From a virus, in the IMG/VR virus record IMGVR_UViG_3300008117_000514, positions 1 to 21,078 of that record: a DNA stretch of 21,078 nucleotides; one strand, given 5' to 3'. A program made the position numbers and the translations under genes. The stretch's first letter is position 1. Each line of letters opens with the position of its first letter. Below are positions 1,222 to 17,519 of this stretch, piece after piece. Below the pieces are notes generated by a model. The model saw only the letters and a list, made by a program, of their open reading frames with translations. It was not told the origin of the DNA and did not search any database.

Positions 1222-2061
1222 TCAAACCTCGATGAATTCAAAGTTCTGGGACCACCGGTTGGGCACCGGCAGGGTGTTGGGCGCGGCCTGGGCGAATTTG
1301 CCGAGCATGCTGTGGTCACGCTCTAGGTCGGCGCCGGCTTCGGGGTAGACGCTCACGAAAATCTCGCGGTGCAGGCCGTTGACTCGGGCCAGGTCTAGCC
1401 ACAGGGCGCGCTCGCTGATGTCCAGCAGGCCCAGGTCAAACGACAGGCGGCGGAAGCTGGCGCGGCGGTCTGTGCGCACGCTGCCGCCCAGGGTGCGGCG
1501 CTGTTCGCTGTTGGTGTCCCACGACAGCGCCAAGCCGTACTCGGCGTTGAACACGGGCGTCAGGTAGCGGCCGATGATGAGGCGGCTGGCCTGCAGGTAG
1601 CCGGCGGGGTTGAGCGGGTCGGCCAGGTCCAGCCGGAAGCTCAGGGCGAAGACCCCCGTGAACCACAAGGTGTAGAACGGCTGCTGCCAGTCATTGAACA
1701 CGCCATTTCCCCAGGGCGCCACGCCCCAGGCGAAACTGCCCCAGCCGATGGAGGTCAGCGGCGTGAGCGTGGTGCTGTCGTACACCACGGTGCCGGTCTG
1801 GTTGGCGCCGGCGTACAGGCGCAGGCGCCAGGTGGCCGCGCCGGTGAGGTTGTGGCCGTACAGCACCAGGGCGCTGCACAGGGTGGATCCGGCGAAGTTG
1901 CCGTTGATGGTTTTGGTGCCGGTGGCGTTGGTGGTGCGGGCCACGCGGGCGCGGCCTTCCAGCTGCAGGTTGCCCACGGGCAACGTGGCGGTGAAGTCAC
2001 CGCTGGTGAGCGTGGCGGCGTCCACGTCGTTGGTGGAGATAACGCGCAGGTTGTTGGCCAT
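1222..2061 (-). CDS. Tail tip protein, probable beta-sandwich domain
   Basis: A 279-residue protein between the putative tail hub gene and the fibre. Its ATG shares one base with the TGA of the upstream gene, so translation is probably coupled. Residues 1-160 are rich in Thr, Gly, Leu and aromatic residues (for example the WGSFAWGVAPWG segment) and look like a discoidin/galactose-binding type beta sandwich. The C-terminal part has charged segments and ends NRWSQNFEFIEV, suggesting an assembly interface. There is no enzyme motif, signal peptide or membrane segment. Position after tape measure and hub supports a distal tail or baseplate role; the exact role (distal tail protein, fibre anchor) is inferred from order only. 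Confidence 0.6.
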   Translation of the reverse strand: MANNLRVISTNDVDAATLTSGDFTATLPVGNLQLEGRARVARTTNATGTKTINGNFAGSTLCSALVLYGHNLTGAATWRLRLYAGANQTGTVVYDSTTLTPLTSIGWGSFAWGVAPWGNGVFNDWQQPFYTLWFTGVFALSFRLDLADPLNPAGYLQASRLIIGRYLTPVFNAEYGLALSWDTNSEQRRTLGGSVRTDRRASFRRLSFDLGLLDISERALWLDLARVNGLHREIFVSVYPEAGADLERDHSMLGKFAQAAPNTLPVPNRWSQNFEFIEV

Positions 2062-3533
2062 CAGACGAAGACCTCAAGTTCGATGCGCCCGCCGGTGAGG
2101 CTTTCGCGCAGGCCCACCACGCGGGCCAGGGTGCCGTTGTTCAGGCCGAAGCGCCCGAGGTTGAGCGCCACCACGTCACCCAGCTTGACCTGCTGCGCGG
2201 CGGTGAAGCCGGCCAGGCGGTACACGTAGCGCAAGGTGCTGTAAAGCGTGGCTTGGCGCGCGGCCTCGGTGTTGGCGGCGGTGGCGTCCAGCAGGGCGGT
2301 GGGCTGCAGGTCTTCGTCGATGGCCAGCAGATGGCCCGTCAGGGTGTTGGTGGCTTTGGCCACGAGGTGCGGCGTCTGCAGGCGTTCGCGCTGGGCTTCG
2401 GTCAGCGTCACGGCGCCGCTGGTGCTGGTGGACCAGAACCGGGCGTAGCCCAGGCGCACGCTTTTGGCGGGCAGGATGCGGCGCACGAGCTGCACGCTGT
2501 TCTCTTCCACGTCGTCAGCGTCCAGGGTCAGCACGGCCGGGGCGGCGGGGGCGCGGAACTGGCCGACGCTGAGCTTGCCGGCGCGGTCAATGGTGTAGAA
2601 GCCGCCCAGGCCGGTGAGCAGGGTGTCCAGCGCCTGCAGCACGGTGGTGGTGTCGTTGTCCACGTACAGGCCCACGGTGGCGCTGATAGCGGTGTTCATG
2701 GCGCTCACACTGGCGGCATCAATGTCGCCGCTGGTGAGCGTGGTGCGCTCGAGCACCAGGCGCTGCATCACATCGGCCGCGGTGGTCACGTAGGTGCCGC
2801 CGGTCTTGCTGCCGCGCACATCGGCGGTGATGGTGCCGGTGAGCGCGCCCGTGAGCGTGATGGTGCCGTTGGCCAGGTCTGCCGTGTAGCCGCCCGTGGC
2901 GCTGCCGTTGACGTACACGGCGTCAATGGCGTGAATCGCGCCATCGTGCACGGCGTAGCGGCGCAGGCCCGCGTCAATCAGCATGGGCGCCACGTTCTTG
3001 CACTCGCCGTAGCAGATGGGGCGGCGGCGGTCTTTGTTGGTGTCTGTGCCGCCGATGAGCGTGGTGCAGGCCGGCACGTTCAACAGGGCCTGGCGGTCAC
3101 GCATGCGCAGGGTGAGCGTGGCGCTGTCGCGGGCCTGGATGTCCTCGAGCGTGCCGCTGAAGACCTGGCGGAAGTCAGCTTTCGGCCAGGTGGGGTCACC
3201 CAGGTACAGGCGCACGGGTCGGCCGTCCCAGGCGTCCGTCAGCCAGGCGTCACGCACGCCGCTGCTGTTGTCGATGTCGATGTCGCCGTAGCCGATGAGG
3301 CTGCGGCCGCGGAAGGCTTCGGCAAGCTGGCTGCGCACCCAGGGCACATCGAGCACGATGTCGTCATACCCGGTGCTGGCGGGGGTGTCGCTGGGCGTGG
3401 TGACGAAGCCGTGGGTGCTCATGTAGCGCGTGACCACGGCGCCGGCGCTGTAGGCTTCGGCCTCCACCAGCACCACGCGGCGCTGGTTGTCGGCGCGCAG
3501 CCAGGCGGTGTATTGGGCGTCACTGATGGGCAT
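2061..3533 (-). CDS. Tail hub / tail tip structural protein
   Basis: A 490-residue protein directly downstream of the tape measure gene, where siphophages usually encode the distal tail and hub proteins. The start ATG (3533-3531) lies one base after the TGA at 3537-3535 that closes the tape measure C-terminal frame, which supports both ends. The N-terminus (MPISDAQYTAWLRADNQRRV) is followed by a beta-rich body of about 150 residues, a short cysteine pair near residues 174-178 (ICYGEC), then long alternating Thr/Gly/Val strands. The C-terminal third includes a KLGDVVALNLGRFGLNNG segment, resembling hub proteins that describe a ring-like barrel. I know of no catalytic motif here. The hub assignment rests on order and general character, so a minor tail protein of another kind is possible. 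Confidence 0.6.
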   Translation of the reverse strand: MPISDAQYTAWLRADNQRRVVLVEAEAYSAGAVVTRYMSTHGFVTTPSDTPASTGYDDIVLDVPWVRSQLAEAFRGRSLIGYGDIDIDNSSGVRDAWLTDAWDGRPVRLYLGDPTWPKADFRQVFSGTLEDIQARDSATLTLRMRDRQALLNVPACTTLIGGTDTNKDRRRPICYGECKNVAPMLIDAGLRRYAVHDGAIHAIDAVYVNGSATGGYTADLANGTITLTGALTGTITADVRGSKTGGTYVTTAADVMQRLVLERTTLTSGDIDAASVSAMNTAISATVGLYVDNDTTTVLQALDTLLTGLGGFYTIDRAGKLSVGQFRAPAAPAVLTLDADDVEENSVQLVRRILPAKSVRLGYARFWSTSTSGAVTLTEAQRERLQTPHLVAKATNTLTGHLLAIDEDLQPTALLDATAANTEAARQATLYSTLRYVYRLAGFTAAQQVKLGDVVALNLGRFGLNNGTLARVVGLRESLTGGRIELEVFV

Positions 3534-3731
3534 GTCAGCTTGGCTTGCTCGCCGGCAATGTCGGGTCGTCGTAGTAGATTTGGTCTGCCAGGGCGCGGCC
3601 GTTCTTGTCCAGCGCCTTCACCAGCGCGCCCTCGAGCTCGCCCACGCGGGCGATCAGGCGCTCCAGCGTGCTGACGGTGGCGGTGGTGCCGGCCGTGGTG
3701 GCTTCCGTCAGCGAAGACAGGCCCTCCATGC
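3419..3731 (-). other. Frameshift region at the tape measure 3' end
   Basis: Without a shift, the tape measure frame runs on to 3419, but the added 104 or so residues are His/Arg/Pro-rich (for example HHGRHHRHRQHAGAP), look like wrong-frame translation, and overlap the next gene by 115 bases. The alternative frame from ATG 3729 to TGA 3535 encodes 64 residues with good protein character (TVSTLERLIARVGELEGALV, then a DKNGRALADQIYYDD motif), and its stop lies one base from the next start. Skipping the single C at 3730 joins the two. No ribosome binding site is seen before ATG 3729, and no heptamer of the usual slippery type is present, so an indel or sequencing error is more likely than programmed recoding. 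Confidence 0.7.
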
Positions 3732-7881: not shown

Positions 7882-7908
7882 GTTGTTTTCTCCTTCGGGT
7901 TACAGGCT

Positions 7909-7926
7909 GACGAGCCGAAGCTCGTC
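7909..7926 (-). other. RNA hairpin with UUCG tetraloop (downstream copy)
   Basis: The minus strand reads GACGAGC TTCG GCTCGTC, a perfect 7-base-pair stem closed by a C(UUCG)G tetraloop, an exceptionally stable RNA loop. It lies between the tail tube stop and the ribosome binding site of the G-like gene. There is no U tract, so a simple intrinsic terminator is unlikely; mRNA stabilisation or weak attenuation between an abundant structural protein and a low-dose chaperone is a reasonable inference. Confidence 0.75.
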
Positions 7927-7955
7927 ATTGCCGGAGGTTGTTGCGGTGAAGCGGT

Positions 7956-8918
7956 TTACAGGCACACGAGCCGAAGCTCGTCATTGCCGGCGGTCGTGGG
8001 GGTGAAGCGCAGGTTCTGGCCGATGTGCACGTCGCCTTCGTATTCCTGGTCCGTCGGGTCGATGCGCTGCACCTGGGGGGCGTGAACGATGATGCCCACG
8101 CCGGCACCGGTGCTGTGCGTGAAGCCCAGCGTGGTGTTCGTGCTGGCGTTGATGTCCGTCATGAAGGACACCTCTTGCGCGGCGGTGAGGTCCAGCTGCA
8201 TGCTGCCCTGGACGTTCCGGTCACTGATCTGCACGGCCTGGCCGCCAAGCAGGGCCTTGCGGCTGACGGTGTTCTGCAGGTTGATGCTGAGGCCCCGGCT
8301 GGGGAACACGGTGCCGGAAGACAGCGCGCCCGCAGCGTAGGTGCAGCCCAGGTTGACATCGCCGCTGTTCACGTCAGTCACCACCTGCGGTGCGCGGAAG
8401 GCGGTGAGCGTGACGCTGGGGTCTGCCGTGGCGGTGCGGCCACCGTCCAGGCCCACCATGCTGAAGCGCAGCATGGGCGCGGCGCCTTCGTTGAGCATGA
8501 TTTCCACGTTGCCCATGGCGCCCAGGGCCACGCGGCGCACGCCGTCGATGTGGTAGTAAATGGTGACGCTGCTGAAACTGGCCGAGACGGGCGTGTATTC
8601 CACGCGGGCGGGCGTGGCCAGGATCGCTTCAGCCATGCCGCAGGCGCGCAGCACGGGGCCCCAGGCGGGGGCGGTGCCGGCGGTGCCGCTGTTGGCCAGC
8701 TCGACCTCGAAGTTGATTTCGACGAAGCGCGTGCCGGCAAGCTGGCCGCTGCCGCCGAAGTACGGGCGGATGAAGTTGCGCTCGACGTTGTTGTAGGCCA
8801 GGTTGAAAGTGGCGTTGCTCACCAGCATGGCGTTGGCCGCGCCGGTGGGCACGCTGTCAACGCCGTAGGTGACCTCGGTTTTGACCAGGATGGCGGTTTT
8901 GCGAATCAGGCGGGGCAT
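7956..8918 (-). CDS. Major tail tube protein
   Basis: A 320-residue protein in the lambda V position, after the connector genes and before the G/GT chaperone pair. The N-terminus (MPRLIRKTAILVKTEVTYGV) and the central strands with FEVELANSGTAGTAPAWGP are characteristic of the phage tail tube family often labelled Phage_tube_2. The rest is beta-rich, with an SINLQNTVSRKALLGG segment and a VQGSMQLDLTAAQ strand expected for the tube ring. It should be the most abundant tail protein, forming stacked hexamers. ATG 8918 is preceded by GAGGAAT, overlapping the stop of the 59-residue gene. The 3' end is duplicated in the spacer that follows, which gives two tandem hairpins. Confidence 0.85.
   Translation of the reverse strand: MPRLIRKTAILVKTEVTYGVDSVPTGAANAMLVSNATFNLAYNNVERNFIRPYFGGSGQLAGTRFVEINFEVELANSGTAGTAPAWGPVLRACGMAEAILATPARVEYTPVSASFSSVTIYYHIDGVRRVALGAMGNVEIMLNEGAAPMLRFSMVGLDGGRTATADPSVTLTAFRAPQVVTDVNSGDVNLGCTYAAGALSSGTVFPSRGLSINLQNTVSRKALLGGQAVQISDRNVQGSMQLDLTAAQEVSFMTDINASTNTTLGFTHSTGAGVGIIVHAPQVQRIDPTDQEYEGDVHIGQNLRFTPTTAGNDELRLVCL
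7966..7981 (-). other. RNA hairpin with UUCG tetraloop (upstream copy, within coding sequence)
   Basis: Second copy of the hairpin: ACGAGC TTCG GCTCGT, 6 base pairs with the same C(UUCG)G loop, formed by the last codons of the tail tube gene. It arises from the same duplicated segment as the hairpin at 7909-7926, so the mRNA would carry two tandem UUCG hairpins about 40 bases apart. Confidence 0.65.
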
Positions 8919-9873: not shown

Positions 9874-11745
9874 TCAGACGGTCAGCGCGTCCACCATCGT
9901 GGCGAAGCTCACCACGTTGCGCAGTTGCACGTCCACGTCTTGCAGGGCCACCACGCGCACGGTGCCGGCGGTGCTGCCGGTGTACGGGTCCACCATCAGG
10001 TCCAGGCTGCCCCACATGCCGATGACCAGGTCAGCGAAGTTGCCGAACACGATGGCCGAGCAGGTGGAGCCCGAGCTGCCCTTGACCAGGTTGGACGGCA
10101 CGGCGTTGGTGACGGCGGTGCGGTAGCCGTTCATCGGCGTGTCACCGTCATCCCACACGAAGCCGTTCTGGCCCGACACCTTGCTGGTGGTCTTGAGCTT
10201 GCCGCGCACGCGGGCGTTGGTCAGGTAGCCCAGCGTGCCCACATCGGCGTTGGCCACGGCCACGTCAGACTCCAGCTGCACCATGTTGGCCCAGGTGGGC
10301 GCTGCACCGTTGGTGCCGCCGATGACGGAGGCCGTCACGCGGGTGAGGATGCCGCTGGGCTGGTTGCTGGCGCCGCTGCCGTTGATGGCGGCTTGCTGAA
10401 TGGCCAGGCCCAGGATGGTGGCCAGGTCGTTCTGCACCATGGCTTCCACGTCGATGCTTGACTGCAGCAGCAGGCGGCGGCTGATGTCGGTGAAGGCGCC
10501 CACCGTTTTCGGGCTCATGGTCACCTGGGCGATGGTCTGGTCGCTCTCGGCGGGGGCGGTGTTCTCAGCCACCCAGTAGGCGGTGCCGGTGCCGCTCAGG
10601 CGCGGGATGGCGATGTTGCCCACCAGGCCCGTCAGCATGCGCGTGCCCATCTTGTCGATGACCATGGCGTTGCGCAGGGCGTCAATGAAGCTGCCGCCCA
10701 GCAGCTCGGTGGCCACCAGGTTGCCGCCGGCCGTGGCCGTGGTGACGTTCAGGTCACGGCGCTGGACTTCGGTGGGCACCATGAAGCCGCGGGCCTGCTT
10801 GCCCAGCTTGGCGGAGGTCGCTTCGGAGCACTCACGCTCGAAGGCGGCAGCGCGCTGCGCGGCGGCGTCGCCCGGGTTGGCCAGGGCGTTGATGGCGCGC
10901 ATCATCGAGTAGCGCTTGGTTTCGCGCTTGTCCAGGCCGATGTCGGCCGTGGGCATGGGCTTGCTGGAGAGCTTGGCGATGGCCTCAGCCTGGAACTGCT
11001 CGGTGGTCAGGCCGCGCTGAATGGCGTCCAGCGCCATGTCGGCGCCGCCGGGCAGGCCCTTGGCGATCTTGGAGATTTCGGCGGCGTGGTTGCGCTCGGC
11101 CACGGGGGTGGTGACATCAGACATGCTGTGGTCCTTCGAGGGTTGGGGTTCGGGTTCAGTCGCTGCCGCTCTGGCTGCGGGGCCTGCGGCGGCCGGGGGG
11201 TCTTGTGCATCGGTGCCTGCATCCAGGCTGCGGCCGATGCCGACCGTGGGGTCTGCTGGCACGGACACCAGCGACACCTCGAAGGGCTCCCAGTCGGTGA
11301 CGCGGTAGGTTTCCACACCTTCCTTTGTCTCGACCAGTTGCGCCTTGTGGATCATGTAGCCCACGCTCACGTTGCGGCGGATGCCGTCACGAACGTCTGA
11401 CCACACTTCCTCTGCGCGTGCGCTTTTTCCGAAGCGCACGGTGGCACGGGCTACACGGTCCGCACCCACCTCGACAGATTCAATGACGCCAACCACATCA
11501 CGGGTGTCGTGATCGACGAGAAGATTGGCCCCGCTGCGCAGGCGCCCCTGGCGCATGGCGGTGGGGTTGATGTCCAGGATCTCGATGCCCCAGTAGCGCT
11601 CATAAGGCGTCTCGCTGGCGAAGGCCAGCGTGGCGGTGCGCGCTTCCTCGTTGATGGCGGCACGCTCCACCTGCAGGGCGCGCTCGGTGCGGCCCTTGGG
11701 CAGGGCGCGCTGGAGATTGGCTGGCAACTTGCTCATGCGCTGCAT
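9874..11745 (-). CDS. Prohead protease - HK97-fold major capsid protein fusion
   Basis: One reading frame encodes both the maturation protease and the major capsid protein. Numbering from the chosen ATG at 11745, the protease part covers about residues 1-175 with a likely catalytic triad His79 (VDHDTRDVVG), Ser127 (RRNVSVGY) and Glu156 (WEPFEVSLVSVPAD), matching the HK97/U35-S78 protease pattern. An Ala/Pro-rich linker follows, then an HK97-type capsid protein (HAAEISKIAKGLPGG region, TATAGGNLVATEL, GTGTAYWVAENTA, LQSSIDVEAMVQNDLA, INGSGASNQPSGIL). Alternative start: GTG 11790 adds 15 residues, but it lies inside a 31-base repeat and has a weak ribosome site, while ATG 11745 has AGGCG upstream. 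An internal ATG at 11124 has its own good site, so free capsid protein may also be made. Such fusions occur in known phages; the protease would release the capsid part during assembly. Confidence 0.9.
   Translation of the reverse strand: MQRMSKLPANLQRALPKGRTERALQVERAAINEEARTATLAFASETPYERYWGIEILDINPTAMRQGRLRSGANLLVDHDTRDVVGVIESVEVGADRVARATVRFGKSARAEEVWSDVRDGIRRNVSVGYMIHKAQLVETKEGVETYRVTDWEPFEVSLVSVPADPTVGIGRSLDAGTDAQDPPAAAGPAARAAATEPEPQPSKDHSMSDVTTPVAERNHAAEISKIAKGLPGGADMALDAIQRGLTTEQFQAEAIAKLSSKPMPTADIGLDKRETKRYSMMRAINALANPGDAAAQRAAAFERECSEATSAKLGKQARGFMVPTEVQRRDLNVTTATAGGNLVATELLGGSFIDALRNAMVIDKMGTRMLTGLVGNIAIPRLSGTGTAYWVAENTAPAESDQTIAQVTMSPKTVGAFTDISRRLLLQSSIDVEAMVQNDLATILGLAIQQAAINGSGASNQPSGILTRVTASVIGGTNGAAPTWANMVQLESDVAVANADVGTLGYLTNARVRGKLKTTSKVSGQNGFVWDDGDTPMNGYRTAVTNAVPSNLVKGSSGSTCSAIVFGNFADLVIGMWGSLDLMVDPYTGSTAGTVRVVALQDVDVQLRNVVSFATMVDALTV
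11122..11137 (-). promoter_or_regulatory. Internal ribosome binding site and ATG for free capsid protein
   Basis: Within the fusion gene the minus strand reads GAAGGA, 7 bases, then ATG (11124-11122), in frame. The position is exactly the end of the protease linker, so initiation would give a capsid protein of 416 residues starting MSDVTTPVAERNHAAE. The sequence and spacing are better than those of the gene's own start, which argues against chance. Lambda uses an internal start in the C gene to make the scaffold Nu3 in a similar way. Confidence 0.6.
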
Positions 11746-11757
11746 GGTGCGGCGCCT

Positions 11758-11788
11758 GGTGTCAAGTGCGTAAGGCAAGCGGCTTGAC
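11758..11788 (-). repeat. 31-base dyad repeat, copy 1
   Basis: This element matches 18121-18151 at 28 of 31 positions in the same orientation. It is bounded by GTCAAG and CTTGAC (an inverted repeat, 16 bases apart) and contains the shared core GTAAGGCAAG on the plus strand. Here it lies just before the likely start of the protease-capsid gene, ending 12 bases upstream of ATG 11745. It may be an operator-like site, a boundary used in module exchange, or the relic of a gene end. Confidence 0.75.
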
Positions 11789-11799
11789 ACCGCGCAACT

Positions 11800-12015
11800 T
11801 CAGCGCCCCAGGAAGATCAGGTCTTCTTGCCGCTTGCGGCGCGGCCGGCGCGGGGTGATGGGGATGAAGGGGACATCACGCCAGGGGCGGTCGCTCCAGT
11901 AGCTGGGCTGGTCAGGCGCGGGCGCTTCCAGCGGCAGCAGGCCCATGATGGCCACGGCCTGGGGCGTGTAGCCAATGCCCTGCAGGGCAATGGCAATGGG
12001 GTTCAGCGTGGCCAT
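11800..12015 (-). CDS. Small hypothetical protein, 71 residues
   Basis: Begins MATLNPIAIALQGIGYTPQA and continues with a short hydrophobic stretch (VAIMGLLPLE), then a Pro/Trp-rich segment (WSDRPWRDVPFIP) and a basic tail (RRPRRKRQED). It starts at ATG 12015 with AGGCG upstream, 16 bases after the repeat-protein stop, and ends 9 bases before the GTG 11790. Similar short proteins with an IALQGIGY-like opening often follow the HGL-motif proteins in phage genomes, so it probably works with the upstream gene product. No function can be assigned; the hydrophobic stretch is too short to be a convincing membrane segment. Confidence 0.65.
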   Translation of the reverse strand: MATLNPIAIALQGIGYTPQAVAIMGLLPLEAPAPDQPSYWSDRPWRDVPFIPITPRRPRRKRQEDLIFLGR

Positions 12016-12031: not shown

Positions 12032-13228
12032 TCAGTTGCGGGTGACGGTGGTGGTGCCGCCCGCGGTGGCCAGGGTCTGCGTGATGCTGCCGGCGCTGCG
12101 GCTGGCGGCGGTGACTTGCAGCGTGCCGGTCAGGCCGTGCAGCGCAGCCAGCTCGTCGATGAGGGCGCCGGGGTCAGCCGGCGTGGTGGTGGGCGCGGCG
12201 GTGGTGGCCACGGTGACGGTGCCGCCTGACTCGCTCACCGTCTGAGCCAGGGCTCCGGCCGTGCGGGCGGTGGCGCTGACCTCCAGCGGCGTGCCGATGC
12301 CCAGGCCGTGCAGCAGGTGGATCTGCAGCAGGCGGCGGGCCTGGATGCCGGTGATCTGGAAGACGATGTCGCTGCCTTCGGCCGCGAAGGTGTCCGCCCC
12401 GCTTTCAGTGGCGGCCAGGGTGCCAGCCACGCGCACCCGACCGGCTGCGGCCAGAGTGTCAGAACCGGTTTCGGTGGCGGCCAGGGCGCCAGCCACGCGC
12501 ACCCGACCGGCTGCGGCCAGAGTGTCAGAACCGGTTTCGGTGGCGGCCAGGCTGCCGCGCACGCGCACCACGCCTTCGGCGCTGAGCGTGTCCGCACCGC
12601 TTTCGGTGGCGGCCAGGGTGCCAGTGATGGTGCCGAGCGAGCCACCAGTTGCGGCAAAGGTGTCAGAGCCGGTTTCGGTGGCGGCCAGGGTGCCGGTGAT
12701 GGTGCCGAGCGAGCCACCAGTTGCGGCAAAGGTGTCTGCACCAGACTCGGCTGCAGCAAGGGCGCCCTGAACGATGACCTTGCCAGAGATGGCAGCGGTG
12801 TCTGCACCGACCTCCAAGGCCGCCAGGGCGCCCTTGACGATGACCCTGCCGGCTGACGCAAAGGTGTCCGCACCGGCCTCGAAAGCGGCCAGCGTGCCTT
12901 TGACGATGACTTTCCCGGCCGCAGAAAGCGTGTCGCTGCCGGTTTCCGTGGCCGCCAGCGTGCCCGTAACGACGGAGCCGACCGTGCCCGCCGCGGCGAA
13001 GGTGTCGGAACCAGACTCCGTGGCGGCCAGGGCGCCCTGGACGACCACCCGCCCGACTGCGGCAAGGGTGTCGCTGCCCGTTTCCGCAGCCGACAGCGCA
13101 CCGCTGACGCGGACGCGGCCTTCAGCGGCCAGCGTGTCGGCGCCGGACTCGACGGCCGACAGGTTGCCGGTGATAACCCCCGGCCCTGCCCCGCCGGCGA
13201 TGCGCGGCACTCTTACGCGCAAGGGCAT
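12032..13228 (-). CDS. Tandem-repeat structural protein (12 x 22-24 residues) with duplicated C-terminal motif
   Basis: A 398-residue protein. Residues about 19-291 are twelve copies of a 22-residue unit with core LAATExGxDTxAAxG followed by short alternating valine strands; three copies (3, 7 and 8) are 24 long. The sequence has no cysteine and almost no aromatic residues, consistent with a regular beta structure such as a solenoid or fibre shaft (inference). Residues about 294-398 form a C-terminal domain with two copies of an L..HGL motif, each followed by an RxAG and a QT..x.GGT.TV pattern (about 303-343 and 358-398). I see no signal peptide. ATG 13228 has GGAG nearby. Location between portal and capsid suggests a virion surface or head decoration role, not proven. 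Confidence 0.75.
   Translation of the reverse strand: MPLRVRVPRIAGGAGPGVITGNLSAVESGADTLAAEGRVRVSGALSAAETGSDTLAAVGRVVVQGALAATESGSDTFAAAGTVGSVVTGTLAATETGSDTLSAAGKVIVKGTLAAFEAGADTFASAGRVIVKGALAALEVGADTAAISGKVIVQGALAAAESGADTFAATGGSLGTITGTLAATETGSDTFAATGGSLGTITGTLAATESGADTLSAEGVVRVRGSLAATETGSDTLAAAGRVRVAGALAATETGSDTLAAAGRVRVAGTLAATESGADTFAAEGSDIVFQITGIQARRLLQIHLLHGLGIGTPLEVSATARTAGALAQTVSESGGTVTVATTAAPTTTPADPGALIDELAALHGLTGTLQVTAASRSAGSITQTLATAGGTTTVTRN
12409..12540 (-). repeat. Two adjacent 66-base DNA repeats in the repeat protein gene
   Basis: Units 12409-12474 and 12475-12540 differ at only one base (T or C at 12422 / 12488). They encode units 11 and 10 of the protein repeat. Such near-identity at synonymous positions points to recent duplication or gene conversion rather than old divergence. 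Confidence 0.9.
12601..12744 (-). repeat. Two adjacent 72-base DNA repeats in the repeat protein gene
   Basis: Units 12601-12672 and 12673-12744 match with one mismatch over the first 60 or so bases and then diverge. They encode the longer 24-residue repeat units (with the GGSLGTI segment), which differ in length from the 66-base units next to them, so the gene carries two separate recent duplications. Confidence 0.85.
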
Positions 13229-13231
13229 AGG

Positions 13232-14065
13232 TTAATCTCCGATCAGCGGCGGGCGGTTTTTGAACGGATGCGCGGCGGGGAGGTTGTTCAGCGCAGTGAT
13301 GTCACCAAATGAAGCTGCTCGCCATGCCATGTAGCCTTCCATGCGCTGGCGAAGCGCATTCGTTAGTGCAACACCTGTGAAGATAATCGCCTCGCGGATA
13401 CGCCAGTTTGTCCATCGGCTAAACTTCACGCCGGAACCTACATCAACTGCCAAAGTCCCAACGTTAGTGCGTTGGGTCCAAGCGCCAGAAACCGTGCCGT
13501 CTACCGCGCCATTCCCCCAACTGTTGATGAAGCCGTTGCCGATGGTGCCACACATAATGTTTGTAGTACCTGTAGAGAAAGTCAGTGCGCCTGTGCCATC
13601 GTAATTTCGCTGGGTGCCCGCAGTGTCATTTGTGTAAAGTGCGCTCTTTCCATTCGACTTAATCAGATACGCCCATCCCGCCGTGGTCGGACCGGCAGCA
13701 TTGTAGAATTCAAACGGCGAGTTGTACGCATTGGTCCAAGACACTGCGCGCAACGACACGAAAAAAGACACAGGATAAACAAACGCCCAGCCTTCGGGGC
13801 TGCGTTGAAGCGCGTCGTTTGAGCCGTCCCACAGAACCGATTGCGGTTGCAGAACGGCATCCAATGTCGGCCTATTTGCAGCAACGCCCTGCGTGAAATG
13901 CCTGCCGTTCCCGCTCTTGTCCGTCAGTTGGGAAACCGCGCCGCTCTGACCAACAATCGCAGCAAGATCGAACGTATCCAGCCATAGCGCCGGTCTTTCA
14001 AGCGCAGGCGTCCAAAGCCGCCCTTGCAGCCGCGCCTCATCGACGAGAGAGACACCACGCGGCAT
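13232..14065 (-). CDS. LamG / concanavalin A-like lectin-domain protein
   Basis: A 277-residue protein. Residues 22-95 carry the pattern of the concanavalin A-like/LamG superfamily as seen in phage and environmental proteins: ALWLDTFDLAAIVG, QLTDKSGNGRHFTQ, NRPTLDAV and LWDGSNDAL. The rest is beta-rich, with the end LPAAHPFKNRPPLIGD, a conserved-looking tail after a helix with LRQRMEGYMAWR. Such domains bind sugars or act as stable beta sandwiches on virion surfaces. ATG 14065 follows the upstream TAA directly, with GAGGA just before. Local GC is about 55%, below the roughly 70% of its neighbours. Capsid-surface fibre or tail-side adhesin are both possible. Confidence 0.7.
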   Translation of the reverse strand: MPRGVSLVDEARLQGRLWTPALERPALWLDTFDLAAIVGQSGAVSQLTDKSGNGRHFTQGVAANRPTLDAVLQPQSVLWDGSNDALQRSPEGWAFVYPVSFFVSLRAVSWTNAYNSPFEFYNAAGPTTAGWAYLIKSNGKSALYTNDTAGTQRNYDGTGALTFSTGTTNIMCGTIGNGFINSWGNGAVDGTVSGAWTQRTNVGTLAVDVGSGVKFSRWTNWRIREAIIFTGVALTNALRQRMEGYMAWRAASFGDITALNNLPAAHPFKNRPPLIGD

Positions 14066-14479
14066 TTACGTCACGTCCTCGTTGAAATCTGTCACATAGA
14101 TTTCGTTGCCCGACGCGGCAAACGCGACACCCGCGTTGTTGATGACGCTGAATCGCAGCGAAAACGGATACAGCCGCACGAGCGGAACGTTGACTATCTT
14201 TGCCGACGCGCCAGTGGTCAGCGGCATCGTGTAAAGATCGCCGCCGACAGCATCGCCTAAATCCGTGCCATCGCTCGCCGTGACGCGCAGCGTGATGCTG
14301 CCGCCCGTCGAAGGCGTGATACTGCCGAGCTTGATCGTCACGAACCCGTACAAGTCACGGTTCGTGCTGTTGTCCCAGGTGACGCGGGTCGATTCGGAGC
14401 CGTTTGCCAGCGAGTTGAGCGTTGTTCCCGCGAGGTTGCTGCTACGAGTGGAAACAGTTGACCATTTTGCGACTGCCAT
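14066..14479 (-). CDS. Hypothetical structural protein, 137 residues (beta-rich)
   Basis: Begins MAVAKWSTVSTRSSNLAGTT and runs as alternating strands rich in Ser, Thr, Val and Gly, ending EIYVTDFNEDVT. No catalytic, membrane or signal sequence is seen. It has a strong AAGGAG site before ATG 14479 and its TAA is directly followed by the lectin gene's ATG, so the two are probably made together and may form one appendage. I recognise the general type (small phage beta-sandwich protein) but no named family. Lower GC than the flanking genes places it in the same acquired cassette. Confidence 0.65.
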   Translation of the reverse strand: MAVAKWSTVSTRSSNLAGTTLNSLANGSESTRVTWDNSTNRDLYGFVTIKLGSITPSTGGSITLRVTASDGTDLGDAVGGDLYTMPLTTGASAKIVNVPLVRLYPFSLRFSVINNAGVAFAASGNEIYVTDFNEDVT

Positions 14480-14482
14480 GAA

Positions 14483-14926
14483 TTACTCCTTCGCACCACG
14501 AGCGATACCGACTGCACGGGCATCGACCTTGACGCCGTGATACTCTGACCACGATGGATGCCGCGAGCGGCGCGAAAGCGCAAACAGCGCATCGCGCTGC
14601 GCCTCCGTCATCACATCACCGAGAACCAGCGCATCAATCGCGGAGCGCGTACTCGTCAGTGAAAAGTCCAAACCGTTTTGCTCTAACGCCCGGAGTCCCC
14701 AGCGCAGCGTCGGGTTGTCCGTTGCCATCGAGGCCAGCGCATCAAGCAAAGCAGCACCTTCTTGCGGCCCGAGCGCGTCCATCACGCCGCCGATGCCAGT
14801 GCTGGTCGGCTCCCATGTCACGACGATGGGCAGCGTTGGGTCTGGCGCATTTAGCGCCGCCGCTGCGGCCCAGTCTGGCAAGTCAGCGACATCGGGATTA
14901 GCGAGTCTCGTAGAAAGTGCGCCCAT
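14483..14926 (-). CDS. Hypothetical phage protein, 147 residues
   Basis: Begins MGALSTRLANPDVADLPDWA. It has a helical middle (GAALLDALASMATDNPTLRW, then ALEQNGLDFSL) and a C-terminal segment PSWSEYHGVKVDARAVGIAR. Proteins of this type recur near phage structural genes, but I know of no established function. It starts at ATG 14926 with GAGG upstream, 11 bases after the preceding stop, and ends 3 bases before the next start. Base composition is like that of the two genes that follow, so it seems to be the first gene of the lower-GC cassette. The Asp/Leu-rich helical region could be an interaction or chaperone domain; that is a guess. Confidence 0.6.
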   Translation of the reverse strand: MGALSTRLANPDVADLPDWAAAAALNAPDPTLPIVVTWEPTSTGIGGVMDALGPQEGAALLDALASMATDNPTLRWGLRALEQNGLDFSLTSTRSAIDALVLGDVMTEAQRDALFALSRRSRHPSWSEYHGVKVDARAVGIARGAKE

Positions 14927-14937
14927 GCCTCAGTACC

Positions 14938-15312
14938 TCAAGCGTGCGTGATCGCCGCGCTGTTGATGGTCACCGTCTGGCCGGCGGTGATGCTCAGGCT
15001 GTCCAGGATGATGTCGGCCGCCGACAGCCCAACGGTCAGGCCGGTGATGATGTCGGTGCCGCCGCTGGCCGTGCGAATGCGAGCCGCTGCGGCCGTGCCG
15101 GTGTTGTCGGCGCTGGAGTCGCTGCGGGGAAAGCCTGCAAGCGTCAGCACGGCGCCCGATGCCGCCGCTGCGGCCGGGTTGCCCAGCGCGATGGTGGCCA
15201 GGACAGTGCTCATGCCCGTGGTGCCGATCTCCAGCACGCCGGTCGTGCCGATGGCCGTGGTGACCGCATCGAGGCGGGCGTTCTTGACTGCGGTGGTGTA
15301 GGTGACTGCCAT
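14938..15312 (-). CDS. Hypothetical structural protein, 124 residues (Ala/Thr-rich)
   Basis: Starts MAVTYTTAVKNARLDAVTTA, followed by LEIGTTGMSTVLATIALG and a beta-rich end (DSLSITAGQTVTINSAAITH). Proteins with this opening are frequent in phage structural operons, usually annotated as hypothetical. The start has AAGGA upstream at a normal spacing. It follows the holin-like gene by 30 bases, and GC is high like the main operon, so it seems not to belong to the lower-GC cassette. The fold looks like a small beta sandwich or jelly roll, compatible with a head decoration or fibre subunit. No function is assigned. Confidence 0.65.
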   Translation of the reverse strand: MAVTYTTAVKNARLDAVTTAIGTTGVLEIGTTGMSTVLATIALGNPAAAAASGAVLTLAGFPRSDSSADNTGTAAAARIRTASGGTDIITGLTVGLSAADIILDSLSITAGQTVTINSAAITHA

Positions 15313-15342: not shown

Positions 15343-15606
15343 TTAGGCGCCAGGCTGCTGGCCGCGCAGGGCGTGCATGCGGGCTTGGTGTTCGCGCTCT
15401 TCGCGGGCGTCGGCGCGGGAGCGGAAATACAGGTTGACCACGAAGCCGGCCAGGCCGAGCACGATGCCGGCCAGCACCGCGGCTTCGCTGCTGACCAGCC
15501 AGCCGCCGAGGGTGACGCTGGCGCCGGTGTAGGTGGTTTTGCTGGCCGCGCTGGCGATGGTGGCGTCCACCGTTTGCTGGGCGACGTGGTGTTTCATCAT
15601 GTCCAT
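15343..15606 (-). CDS. Holin-like small membrane protein
   Basis: An 87-residue protein with one strong hydrophobic segment (about residues 39-62: SSEAAVLAGIVLGLAGFVVN), a preceding amphipathic Gly/Ser region (SKTTYTGASVTLGGWL) and a highly charged C-terminus (RSRADAREEREHQARM). This resembles HP1-type phage holins (Phage_holin_2_3-like), which form the inner-membrane hole at the end of infection. The start ATG 15606 lies 8 bases after the portal stop with GAGG between. No endolysin or spanin is encoded nearby, which is unusual because lysis genes are normally grouped together. A membrane protein with another job, for example in host exclusion, is the main alternative. Confidence 0.65.
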   Translation of the reverse strand: MDMMKHHVAQQTVDATIASAASKTTYTGASVTLGGWLVSSEAAVLAGIVLGLAGFVVNLYFRSRADAREEREHQARMHALRGQQPGA

Positions 15607-15614
15607 GGGCGGCC

Positions 15615-17519
15615 TCAGCGCTCGTAGGTGGTGACGGTGCGGGTGATTTCGTCGTTGGCGTCACGCTCGACGGTTTGCACGCTGCGGGTGGGGTGGCTGT
15701 CCACCACGGTGACGGCGGCGGGCTGCACCTGGTTGACCACGTTGACGGCCGGCACTTCGGCGCGCACCTCGGGCATGATGGCCTCGACGGTGACGTTGGG
15801 CGCGGGGATGACGATGGGCATGTTCTGCACGTCCTCTCGGATCTGGCTGAGCATGGCGCGGTGCAGCTCTTGGATGTTGTGCGCCATCTGCTCGGCCTGG
15901 GCGGTGTCAATGCCCACGTGCACGCTGACCGGGGCCGGCGCGGGTGCGGGGCGCTCCAGCGCACGGGCCAGCACTTCCACCATGGCAGCCTCCGGCGCGG
16001 CGCGGCCGGCGGTGGGTTCCGCAGCCGGGGCCGGGGCGCCTGGTGCGCCTGCAGCGTTGGCGCCAGGCGTGGCGTCATAGGCCGTCAGGCGCACGCCGTA
16101 TTCGGCGGCCAGGTCTTGCGCGGCCTTGATGGCGGCCAGGGTGTCGTCGAAGTCGTACCCCATGGCGGCGCTCAGGTCTTGCGGGCTCATCAGGCCGGCT
16201 TTGACCTTGAGGATGTTGGCCTCGGTGTCGGCCTTGGGGTCTACCCAGTCCCACCGACGGGGCTGCCACTGGTGGGCGCGGAACTTGTCGAGCTTGGCGG
16301 CGGGCAAGGCGCTGCCGTTGGGCATGAGGATCAGGCCCTTGAGCAGGCACCACTGCAGCCAGGCCTGGTAGACGGGCTCCAGGAAGGCGGCGATGAACCA
16401 TTCCTGGTCAGCGGCCCAGCGGTCACGCTCTTCCAGCGTGCCGCTGCGGATGCTGCTGAAGTTCACGCCTTCCAGGTCATTGGCCAGGCTGTGGTACGCG
16501 ATGCCCCAGCCCGAGGCGATGCGCTGCAGGTGGTGTTTGACGAAGGGGCCAACCACCTGGTCTGGATAGCGGCTTTCGTGCGCCTGGAAGGTGACGCCGG
16601 GGGGCAGCACGTCATAGGTGCCGGGCTGGCTGACGGTGATGGATTCGCCCTCACCTTCCACGGCGCCGATGGGGCTTTGGCCGTCAGGCGTCTGGAAGAA
16701 GCCGAAGTGGTTGGCGCCGTTTTCGGCGGCCAGCAGCGTGGCCAGGCTGAACTTGCCCAGGTGGTGCAGGCTGACGACGCCAGGCGCCATCCAGGGCACG
16801 CCGCGGGCTTGCTCGGGGCGCTCTACGCGCAGCACGTGCAGCACTTCACCGATGGGCATGCGCAGGCGCTGGCGGTTGCTGCCGTGGCCGTCATTCGGGT
16901 GGCCGGCGAAGACGTAGACGGCCACGGGGCGGCGGTAGCTGTCCACCTCCACGCCCATGATGATGGCGTTGCGGCCGGGCGTGGCGGCGATGTTGTAGAG
17001 GGTGTCAATGCGATCGACATCGATGGCCTGCAGGGCGAAGCCGAAGCGGTTTCCAGCCTCGGGGCCACGCACCAGGCGCACGAGGAATTCGCCATCGGTG
17101 GGGAGCTGGCCCACCAGGGTTTCGCACAGATCCCGCAGGCTTTGCCGGCCGGTGACATCGCACTGCGCGCCCCACTCGGCCCAGGCGGATTCGATGGCCT
17201 GGTTGGCCAGGCGGTCGGGCCGGTTGGGGCCGTCTTGCACGCGGGCCTGCAGGCGGATGCCGCCCGGGCCCACGATGTTGGCCTGCACCATCAGGCGGAA
17301 CTTGCGGGCGTAGTCGTTGTTGTTGATGAGCTGGCGGCAGCGGGCGCGCAGGCGGTCCAGGTCTGTGCGCAGCTCTTCGTTGATGCTGTTGGTGGTGCTG
17401 ATCCAGTCAGCGGTGAGGCGGTCAATCCGCGCGCCCTCGAAGCGGCGTTTCTGCACGCGGGCGGCCGGGGCGATGCGCTGGGCCAGCCACTGGCGGGTGC
17501 TGCTGAGGAAGTTGCTCAT
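15615..17519 (-). CDS. Portal protein (lambda gpB family)
   Basis: A 634-residue protein forming the dodecameric ring at the head vertex through which DNA is packaged. The opening (FLSSTRQWLAQRIAPAARVQ, then an RRFEGARIDRLTADWI motif), the ARKFRLMVQANIVGPGGIRL segment and the QARGVPWMAPGVVSLHHLGK region are characteristic of lambda-type portals (Phage_portal_2). A Pro/Ala-rich linker near residues 480-525 precedes a C-terminal tail rich in Glu and Thr. The ATG overlaps the upstream TGA in an ATGA arrangement, so translation is coupled. Length is a little above lambda B (533 residues), mostly from the C-terminal tail. GC matches the main operon. Confidence 0.92.
   Translation of the reverse strand: MSNFLSSTRQWLAQRIAPAARVQKRRFEGARIDRLTADWISTTNSINEELRTDLDRLRARCRQLINNNDYARKFRLMVQANIVGPGGIRLQARVQDGPNRPDRLANQAIESAWAEWGAQCDVTGRQSLRDLCETLVGQLPTDGEFLVRLVRGPEAGNRFGFALQAIDVDRIDTLYNIAATPGRNAIIMGVEVDSYRRPVAVYVFAGHPNDGHGSNRQRLRMPIGEVLHVLRVERPEQARGVPWMAPGVVSLHHLGKFSLATLLAAENGANHFGFFQTPDGQSPIGAVEGEGESITVSQPGTYDVLPPGVTFQAHESRYPDQVVGPFVKHHLQRIASGWGIAYHSLANDLEGVNFSSIRSGTLEERDRWAADQEWFIAAFLEPVYQAWLQWCLLKGLILMPNGSALPAAKLDKFRAHQWQPRRWDWVDPKADTEANILKVKAGLMSPQDLSAAMGYDFDDTLAAIKAAQDLAAEYGVRLTAYDATPGANAAGAPGAPAPAAEPTAGRAAPEAAMVEVLARALERPAPAPAPVSVHVGIDTAQAEQMAHNIQELHRAMLSQIREDVQNMPIVIPAPNVTVEAIMPEVRAEVPAVNVVNQVQPAAVTVVDSHPTRSVQTVERDANDEITRTVTTYER

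Follow-up and report, generated by a model that had tools for sequence, protein, structure and literature searches.

A repeat protein of variable length, encoded beside a small relative of fibre-connecting proteins and exchanged with it between phage backbones, lies within the tailed-phage structural module that a 21,078-base virus record (the whole stretch of DNA analyzed here, referred to as the window) carries on its minus strand. We consider it probable that these genes constitute a mobile cassette of adaptor plus virion fibre, whose shaft or filament, beta-structured and variable in length, would be the repeat protein. The connector fold of the partner was already known, its role being established in a few model phages, and the pairing now ties to it a previously unannotated repeat family of many environmental phages. 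The open-licence literature, searched under a selection of possible names, yielded no paper on the pair, and by DNA the nearest named phages match the window over 110 bases of the tape-measure gene only.

The twelve-unit array and its family

The repeat protein (12032..13228, minus strand; ATG at 13228, stop at 12032) has 398 residues, of which residues 21-292 (12353..13168, minus strand) form an array of twelve 22- or 24-residue units with the consensus GxLAATExGxDTxAAxGxVxVx. Units start at residues 21, 43, 65, 89, 111, 133, 155, 179, 203, 225, 247 and 269, a spacing of 22 or 24. Coordinates, strand and unit count are those of the initial annotation, and an HMM built only from the units of other phages recovered all 12 domains (E = 5.8e-97), compared with E = 0.095 for the best of 200 shuffled controls; TRF also detected tandem arrays in the gene. 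Cysteine is absent, as had been noted before, and the few aromatics of the array are exclusively Phe. The C-terminal part (12035..12352, minus strand) comprises two copies of a helix followed by three strands (HGL...PLxVxAxxRxAGxxxQT...TTTV). The GC-rich nature of the repeat is taken to account for the long open reading frames that overlie the array in other frames (e.g. 12235-13101 and 12261-12770).

Searches of Pfam, PHROGs and PDB with the repeat protein sequence gave no family above threshold, and no solved structure was matched by sequence; matches to PA14 (E 0.0052) and phrog_9477 (0.064) were set aside as repeat-composition noise. The C-terminal part alone had no match among phages. A BFVD search with the model of the repeat returned one uncultured-phage protein (E 4.7e-5, 32% identical) with no assigned function. 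The loose likeness to RTX repeats suggested in the initial annotation did not survive inspection: GGxGxD and GxGxD each have 0 matches in the protein and the period is 22, not 9, and we rejected a calcium-binding RTX reading for want of a GGxGxDxUx nonapeptide in tandem.

A search of viral contigs for the unit matched 216 stretches, the best 80 of which were retained. About 70 distinct proteins of phages, with differing N- and C-terminal domains, contain the unit, and the consensus given above holds across 74 distinct proteins. The unit is also present in five bacterial contigs, one of them from Aromatoleum anaerobium. Most spacings across the family are 22 residues, the commonest departure being 24-25, and by HMM the proteins have about 4 to 25 units; 21-residue units without Gly9 occur in two further contigs (L140, L162) and in Curvibacter phage P26059A. 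The N-terminal parts vary, including LamG-like domains (L017, L018), a zinc carboxypeptidase domain (Peptidase_M14, E 5.8e-9; L075:3613-5088) and several uncharacterized beta-rich domains. For the C-terminal parts, at least three unrelated classes can be distinguished, one being that of the window protein. The fibre or stalk role proposed in the initial annotation is retained, given a fixed neighbour of fibre-connector type, and its further claim that the shaft carries the C-terminal domain is not supported in that form, in view of these unrelated classes. Modules that are likely to bind ligands occur as N-terminal fusions or as separate neighbouring genes.

One recurrent C-terminal tail, in which charged residues are followed by leucines (e.g. 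EDEDDLLVLLLAA), is found in the repeat proteins of L009, L016, L018, L020, L027, L045, L077, L080 and L155 and possibly acts as a docking signal. It also exists as a separate small gene: g71 of the window (11800..12015, minus strand) ends in RRKRQEDLIFLGR and resembles the acidic/leucine tails of many repeat proteins.

The composition of the repeat is simple (rich in Ala, Gly, Thr, Val and Ser) and its duplications are recent, as would be expected of low-complexity filler, that is, a DNA repeat that expands with little functional role in a flexible linker able to tolerate it. We regard this explanation as highly improbable. Across 620 aligned units from about 70 proteins, Gly1, Glu7, Asp11 and Gly17 are essentially invariant, a conservation overstated to some degree because the training pattern demanded some of these residues. 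Divergence between units is mainly synonymous (dN 0.28 vs dS 0.98; dN/dS of about 0.29), which indicates that the protein motif is under constraint, and the partner gene is fixed.

Coils of a beta-helix stack at about 0.48 nm; if the units were to stack in this way, twelve would span approximately 6 nm. Rather than disorder throughout, the AF2 monomer has beta structure, and the composition of the protein falls on the folded side of the charge-hydropathy line. The predicted fold is a beta-solenoid with one 6-residue and one 12-residue strand per unit (pLDDT 67.7), a model that VIA-align groups with beta-helix adhesins and tailspikes at Z up to 25.3 (Vag8) and for which Foldseek against the PDB gave a best E of 0.29. 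Since AF2 over-predicts, or invents, beta-solenoids for repeat sequences (PMC11795689), we treat the beta-helix as weak evidence. In such a solenoid, Glu7 and Asp11 would be stacked on their counterparts in successive turns with no evident counter-ion; these residues may bind metal or contact a partner.

Unit number in close relatives

The initial annotation had pointed to near-identical neighbouring units and proposed that copy number can change by recombination; the near identity is confirmed, and a changing copy number is supported. A single base separates the two 66-bp units (12409-12474 and 12475-12540), and 5 bases separate the two 72-bp units (12601-12672 and 12673-12744), or 2 in 68 in the best register. 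Among close relatives, the repeat number is not invariant. One contig (L002), with surroundings almost without differences from the window, also has 12 units. A second (L003; 99.6% identical) follows the window over 3961 bp with 14 mismatches; exactly one 72-bp unit (12665..12736, minus strand) is missing at that point, and the next 138 bp are identical. Taken alone, this missing unit could be a short-read assembly collapse. That explanation does not easily apply to L006 and L007, which both represent a single related phage, because their units differ in sequence. In these records six units are flanked by an N-terminal end 100% identical, and a C-terminal end 96% identical, to those of the window protein. 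In another pair (L044 and L053), the proteins are one unit, or 24 residues, apart. The number of units in the repeat protein therefore varies between close relatives.

In the proposed mechanism, the 22-residue units would together make up a shaft rich in beta structure, whose length would change by whole units when near-identical units recombine unequally. If unit number does set shaft length, phages could change the reach of an appendage by simple recombination, a route to rapid adaptation.

The partner gene g124

The gene that we consider central to the interpretation, g124 (14938..15312, minus strand; 124 residues), lies outside the coordinates covered by the initial annotation and was missed there. 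It encodes a fibre-connector/garland-like protein (phrog_3758). In most repeat loci it is found a short distance upstream of the repeat gene, including loci whose terminase, portal and capsid do not resemble those of the window. A reverse search starting from g124 gave 57 distinct sequences, 50 of them with enough flanking DNA, and a repeat protein was adjacent in all 50 (46 found by HMM and 4 by eye), a pairing that holds for this clade only, as the sequences aligned for g124 came from loci with the repeat. In the 46 HMM-found cases, the repeat gene is downstream of g124 in 45 and upstream in 1. The unit HMM detected no such repeat in the examined neighbours of distant g124 relatives (KPP25, Pan4, Seuss and MW202496), although it also misses the divergent units of P26059A, such that very divergent repeats could escape it. 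We conclude that the pairing of g124 with the repeat is a property of one clade, within which it is near-obligate. Two loci (L013:6459-7245 and L049:6498-7283) carry two tandem, diverged g124 paralogues ahead of the repeat gene, the outer one being similar to proteins from Caulobacter phage Seuss, from Vibrio phages and from Milano.

By sequence and fold, g124 is a relative of fibre-connecting proteins. With the g124 alignment A2, hmmsearch matched PDB entries 44nx_B (E 4.5e-7), whose printed part is identical to ORF006 of Pseudomonas phage KPP25, a structural protein, and 9rkv_A of phage 7-7-1 (E 2.4e-6), which we infer from its length and from the text of the 7-7-1 paper to be gp014. The AF2 model of g124 (pLDDT 95.4) matches 9rkv_A in Foldseek (E 3.3e-4, TM 0.70) and in VIA (Z 11.6, 119 aligned), followed in VIA by the neck proteins of Bas63 (Z 9.5) and Sf14 (entry 9c39_K, probably gp31 by its length; Z 9.3, 102 aligned). 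Matches to the GP4 fibre-tail adaptor (7.3), A511 gp105 (6.2) and a phi812 arm segment (5.8) fall below Z 8 and are weak on the tool's own scale. When the single Sf14 gp31 sequence was used as hhalign target, no sequence similarity to g124 was detected (probability 0.2).

Garland proteins of 7-7-1 are homodimers that touch short and long tail fibres and wrap the tail fibres (PMC12796354), and those of Milano have the fold of T4 gp8 and A511 gp105, a type of protein that links receptor-binding proteins to the baseplate (PMC10811340). By analogy, g124 would be the connector that docks a fibre to the virion, and the repeat protein the shaft or filament that it holds.

The same relatives permit a different arrangement, in which the repeat protein is an extended string that binds g124 dimers, one or a few units per dimer, and in which unit number sets the count of beads in a whisker or garland. 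The near-obligate pairing and the conservation of the whole repeat motif across phages are consistent with this arrangement, as are the A511 connector dimers that line up on an extended chain, the unidentified 'string' of the Milano garland (PMC10811340) and the single Sf14 protein that threads both whiskers (PMC11821841). However, the strings of Sf14 and A511 are not known as tandem repeats, and the distant relatives of g124 in KPP25, Pan4 and Seuss had no such repeat in the neighbourhoods examined. We rate the string as rather unlikely, and the data do not separate it from a shaft. Its most specific form, a two-component, length-tunable appendage in which each 22-residue unit would bind one g124 dimer, the recombination-changed unit number would count the whisker beads, and the pair would move as a module among unrelated tailed phages, appears more doubtful still.

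Cassette exchange and comparison with known appendages

In the window, the cassette is flanked upstream by the portal gene (15615..17519, minus strand) and downstream by a protease-major capsid fusion (phrog_617; 9874..11790, minus strand), the latter identified by family scan and followed by the tail genes; the portal and terminase genes take their names from their order, their size and the sequence. A holin-like gene (Phage_holin_2_4, E 5.3e-16; 15343-15606, minus strand) lies between portal and g124, inside the head module. Downstream of g124 are two small cassette proteins, g147 (14483..14926, minus strand) and g137 (14066..14479, minus strand), and then g277 (13232..14065, minus strand), a virion structural protein (phrog_10356). 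Two features lie elsewhere in the window: a two-copy 56-base tandem duplication (87% match) at 7896-8009, across the end of a 320-residue gene and probably a duplicated gene end, and a tape-measure reading-frame tail of odd composition (3419-3650, minus strand), which shares about 115 bases, read in another frame, with the next gene (2061-3533) and where a frameshift near the end of the frame is possible.

Comparison with L006 indicates how the cassette moves. From the holin-like gene to g71, the two phages are 65-96% identical, and at least 90% identical save for g71 and a replaced g277; individual values in L006 and L007 are 96% for the holin-like gene, 93% for g147 and 90% for g137. TerL, portal and capsid are only 27-41% identical between L006 and the window. 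A similar block within a dissimilar backbone points to exchange of the genes as a block. In g277, compared with its L006 counterpart (L006:6827-7558), the first ~20 and last ~15 residues are kept and the middle is exchanged, as expected for a diversifying tip protein. By comparison with the LamG-bearing relatives, we propose that g277 may be a lectin-like tip or adhesin. Neighbouring genes or fused domains of this kind (LamG-like, glycine-rich, peptidase, collagen-like and others) would supply ligand binding or activity to the fibre.

Across the family, the cassette adjoins six capsid families (phrog_617, 1357, 1328, 10, 267 and 212). It lies between portal and capsid in the window and in L058 and L018, after the capsid gene in L031, L051, L073 and L023, before the terminase in L034, and after a gene matching tail families in L049. 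The L034 copy (NZ_WTVG02000039.1 323098-340048) stands near terminase and portal genes in a 716-kb contig of the cultured Aromatoleum anaerobium LuFRes1, and this region is likely a prophage.

The position among head genes, from portal to protease/capsid, in the window and in other loci would be compatible with a product that coats the capsid or neck in the manner of head fibres and has no receptor-binding role, and phrog_3758, which 56 of the 56 g124 family members match, is filed under head and packaging. We nevertheless find such a decoration improbable, as the fold relatives of g124 are mostly fibre or neck connectors, adhesin-like and enzyme-like domains occur in the same cassette, and the positions in L034 and L049 depart from the head genes. 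The length-variable fibre shaft held by a connector remains the reading that we favor, with the neck, tail or capsid as its presumptive site on the virion. The pair of g124 and repeat gene offers a handle for finding and testing exchangeable virion appendages.

Several known systems resemble parts of this cassette. The predicted beta-helix-like solenoid, with 22 residues per turn, is reminiscent of the parallel beta-helix adhesins and tailspikes (Vag8, EtpA, pertactin and the P22 tailspike), but these have no sequence relation to the repeat protein, whose repeats, unlike theirs, are nearly identical, and the model may be an AF2 artefact. In the cultured siphophage P26059A, gp5 is homologous to g124 (70.5%) and gp7 is a repeat protein, the pair being encoded between portal-like and protease genes; gp7, a hypothetical protein, differs in having 21-residue units of TExxDT type and is 40% identical in the best segment. 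The garland proteins of 7-7-1 (gp014) and Milano (gp125/gp127) are likewise small, fibre-associated virion proteins, and g124 shares both sequence and fold with the 7-7-1 chain 9rkv_A. In contrast to g124, which is found among head genes together with a repeat protein, they serve the baseplates of contractile tails and have no reported 22-residue repeat partner. Finally, the neck whiskers of Sf14 (gp30/gp31) show no similarity to g124 by hhalign with the single gp31 sequence and have no reported tandem repeat, whereas in fold g124 matches both them and the Bas63 connector (Z 9.3-9.5). The two Sf14 whisker genes sit between portal and protease (PMC11821841), the same portal-to-protease/capsid position that the cassette occupies in the window; as gene position, it would agree with a location at the neck.
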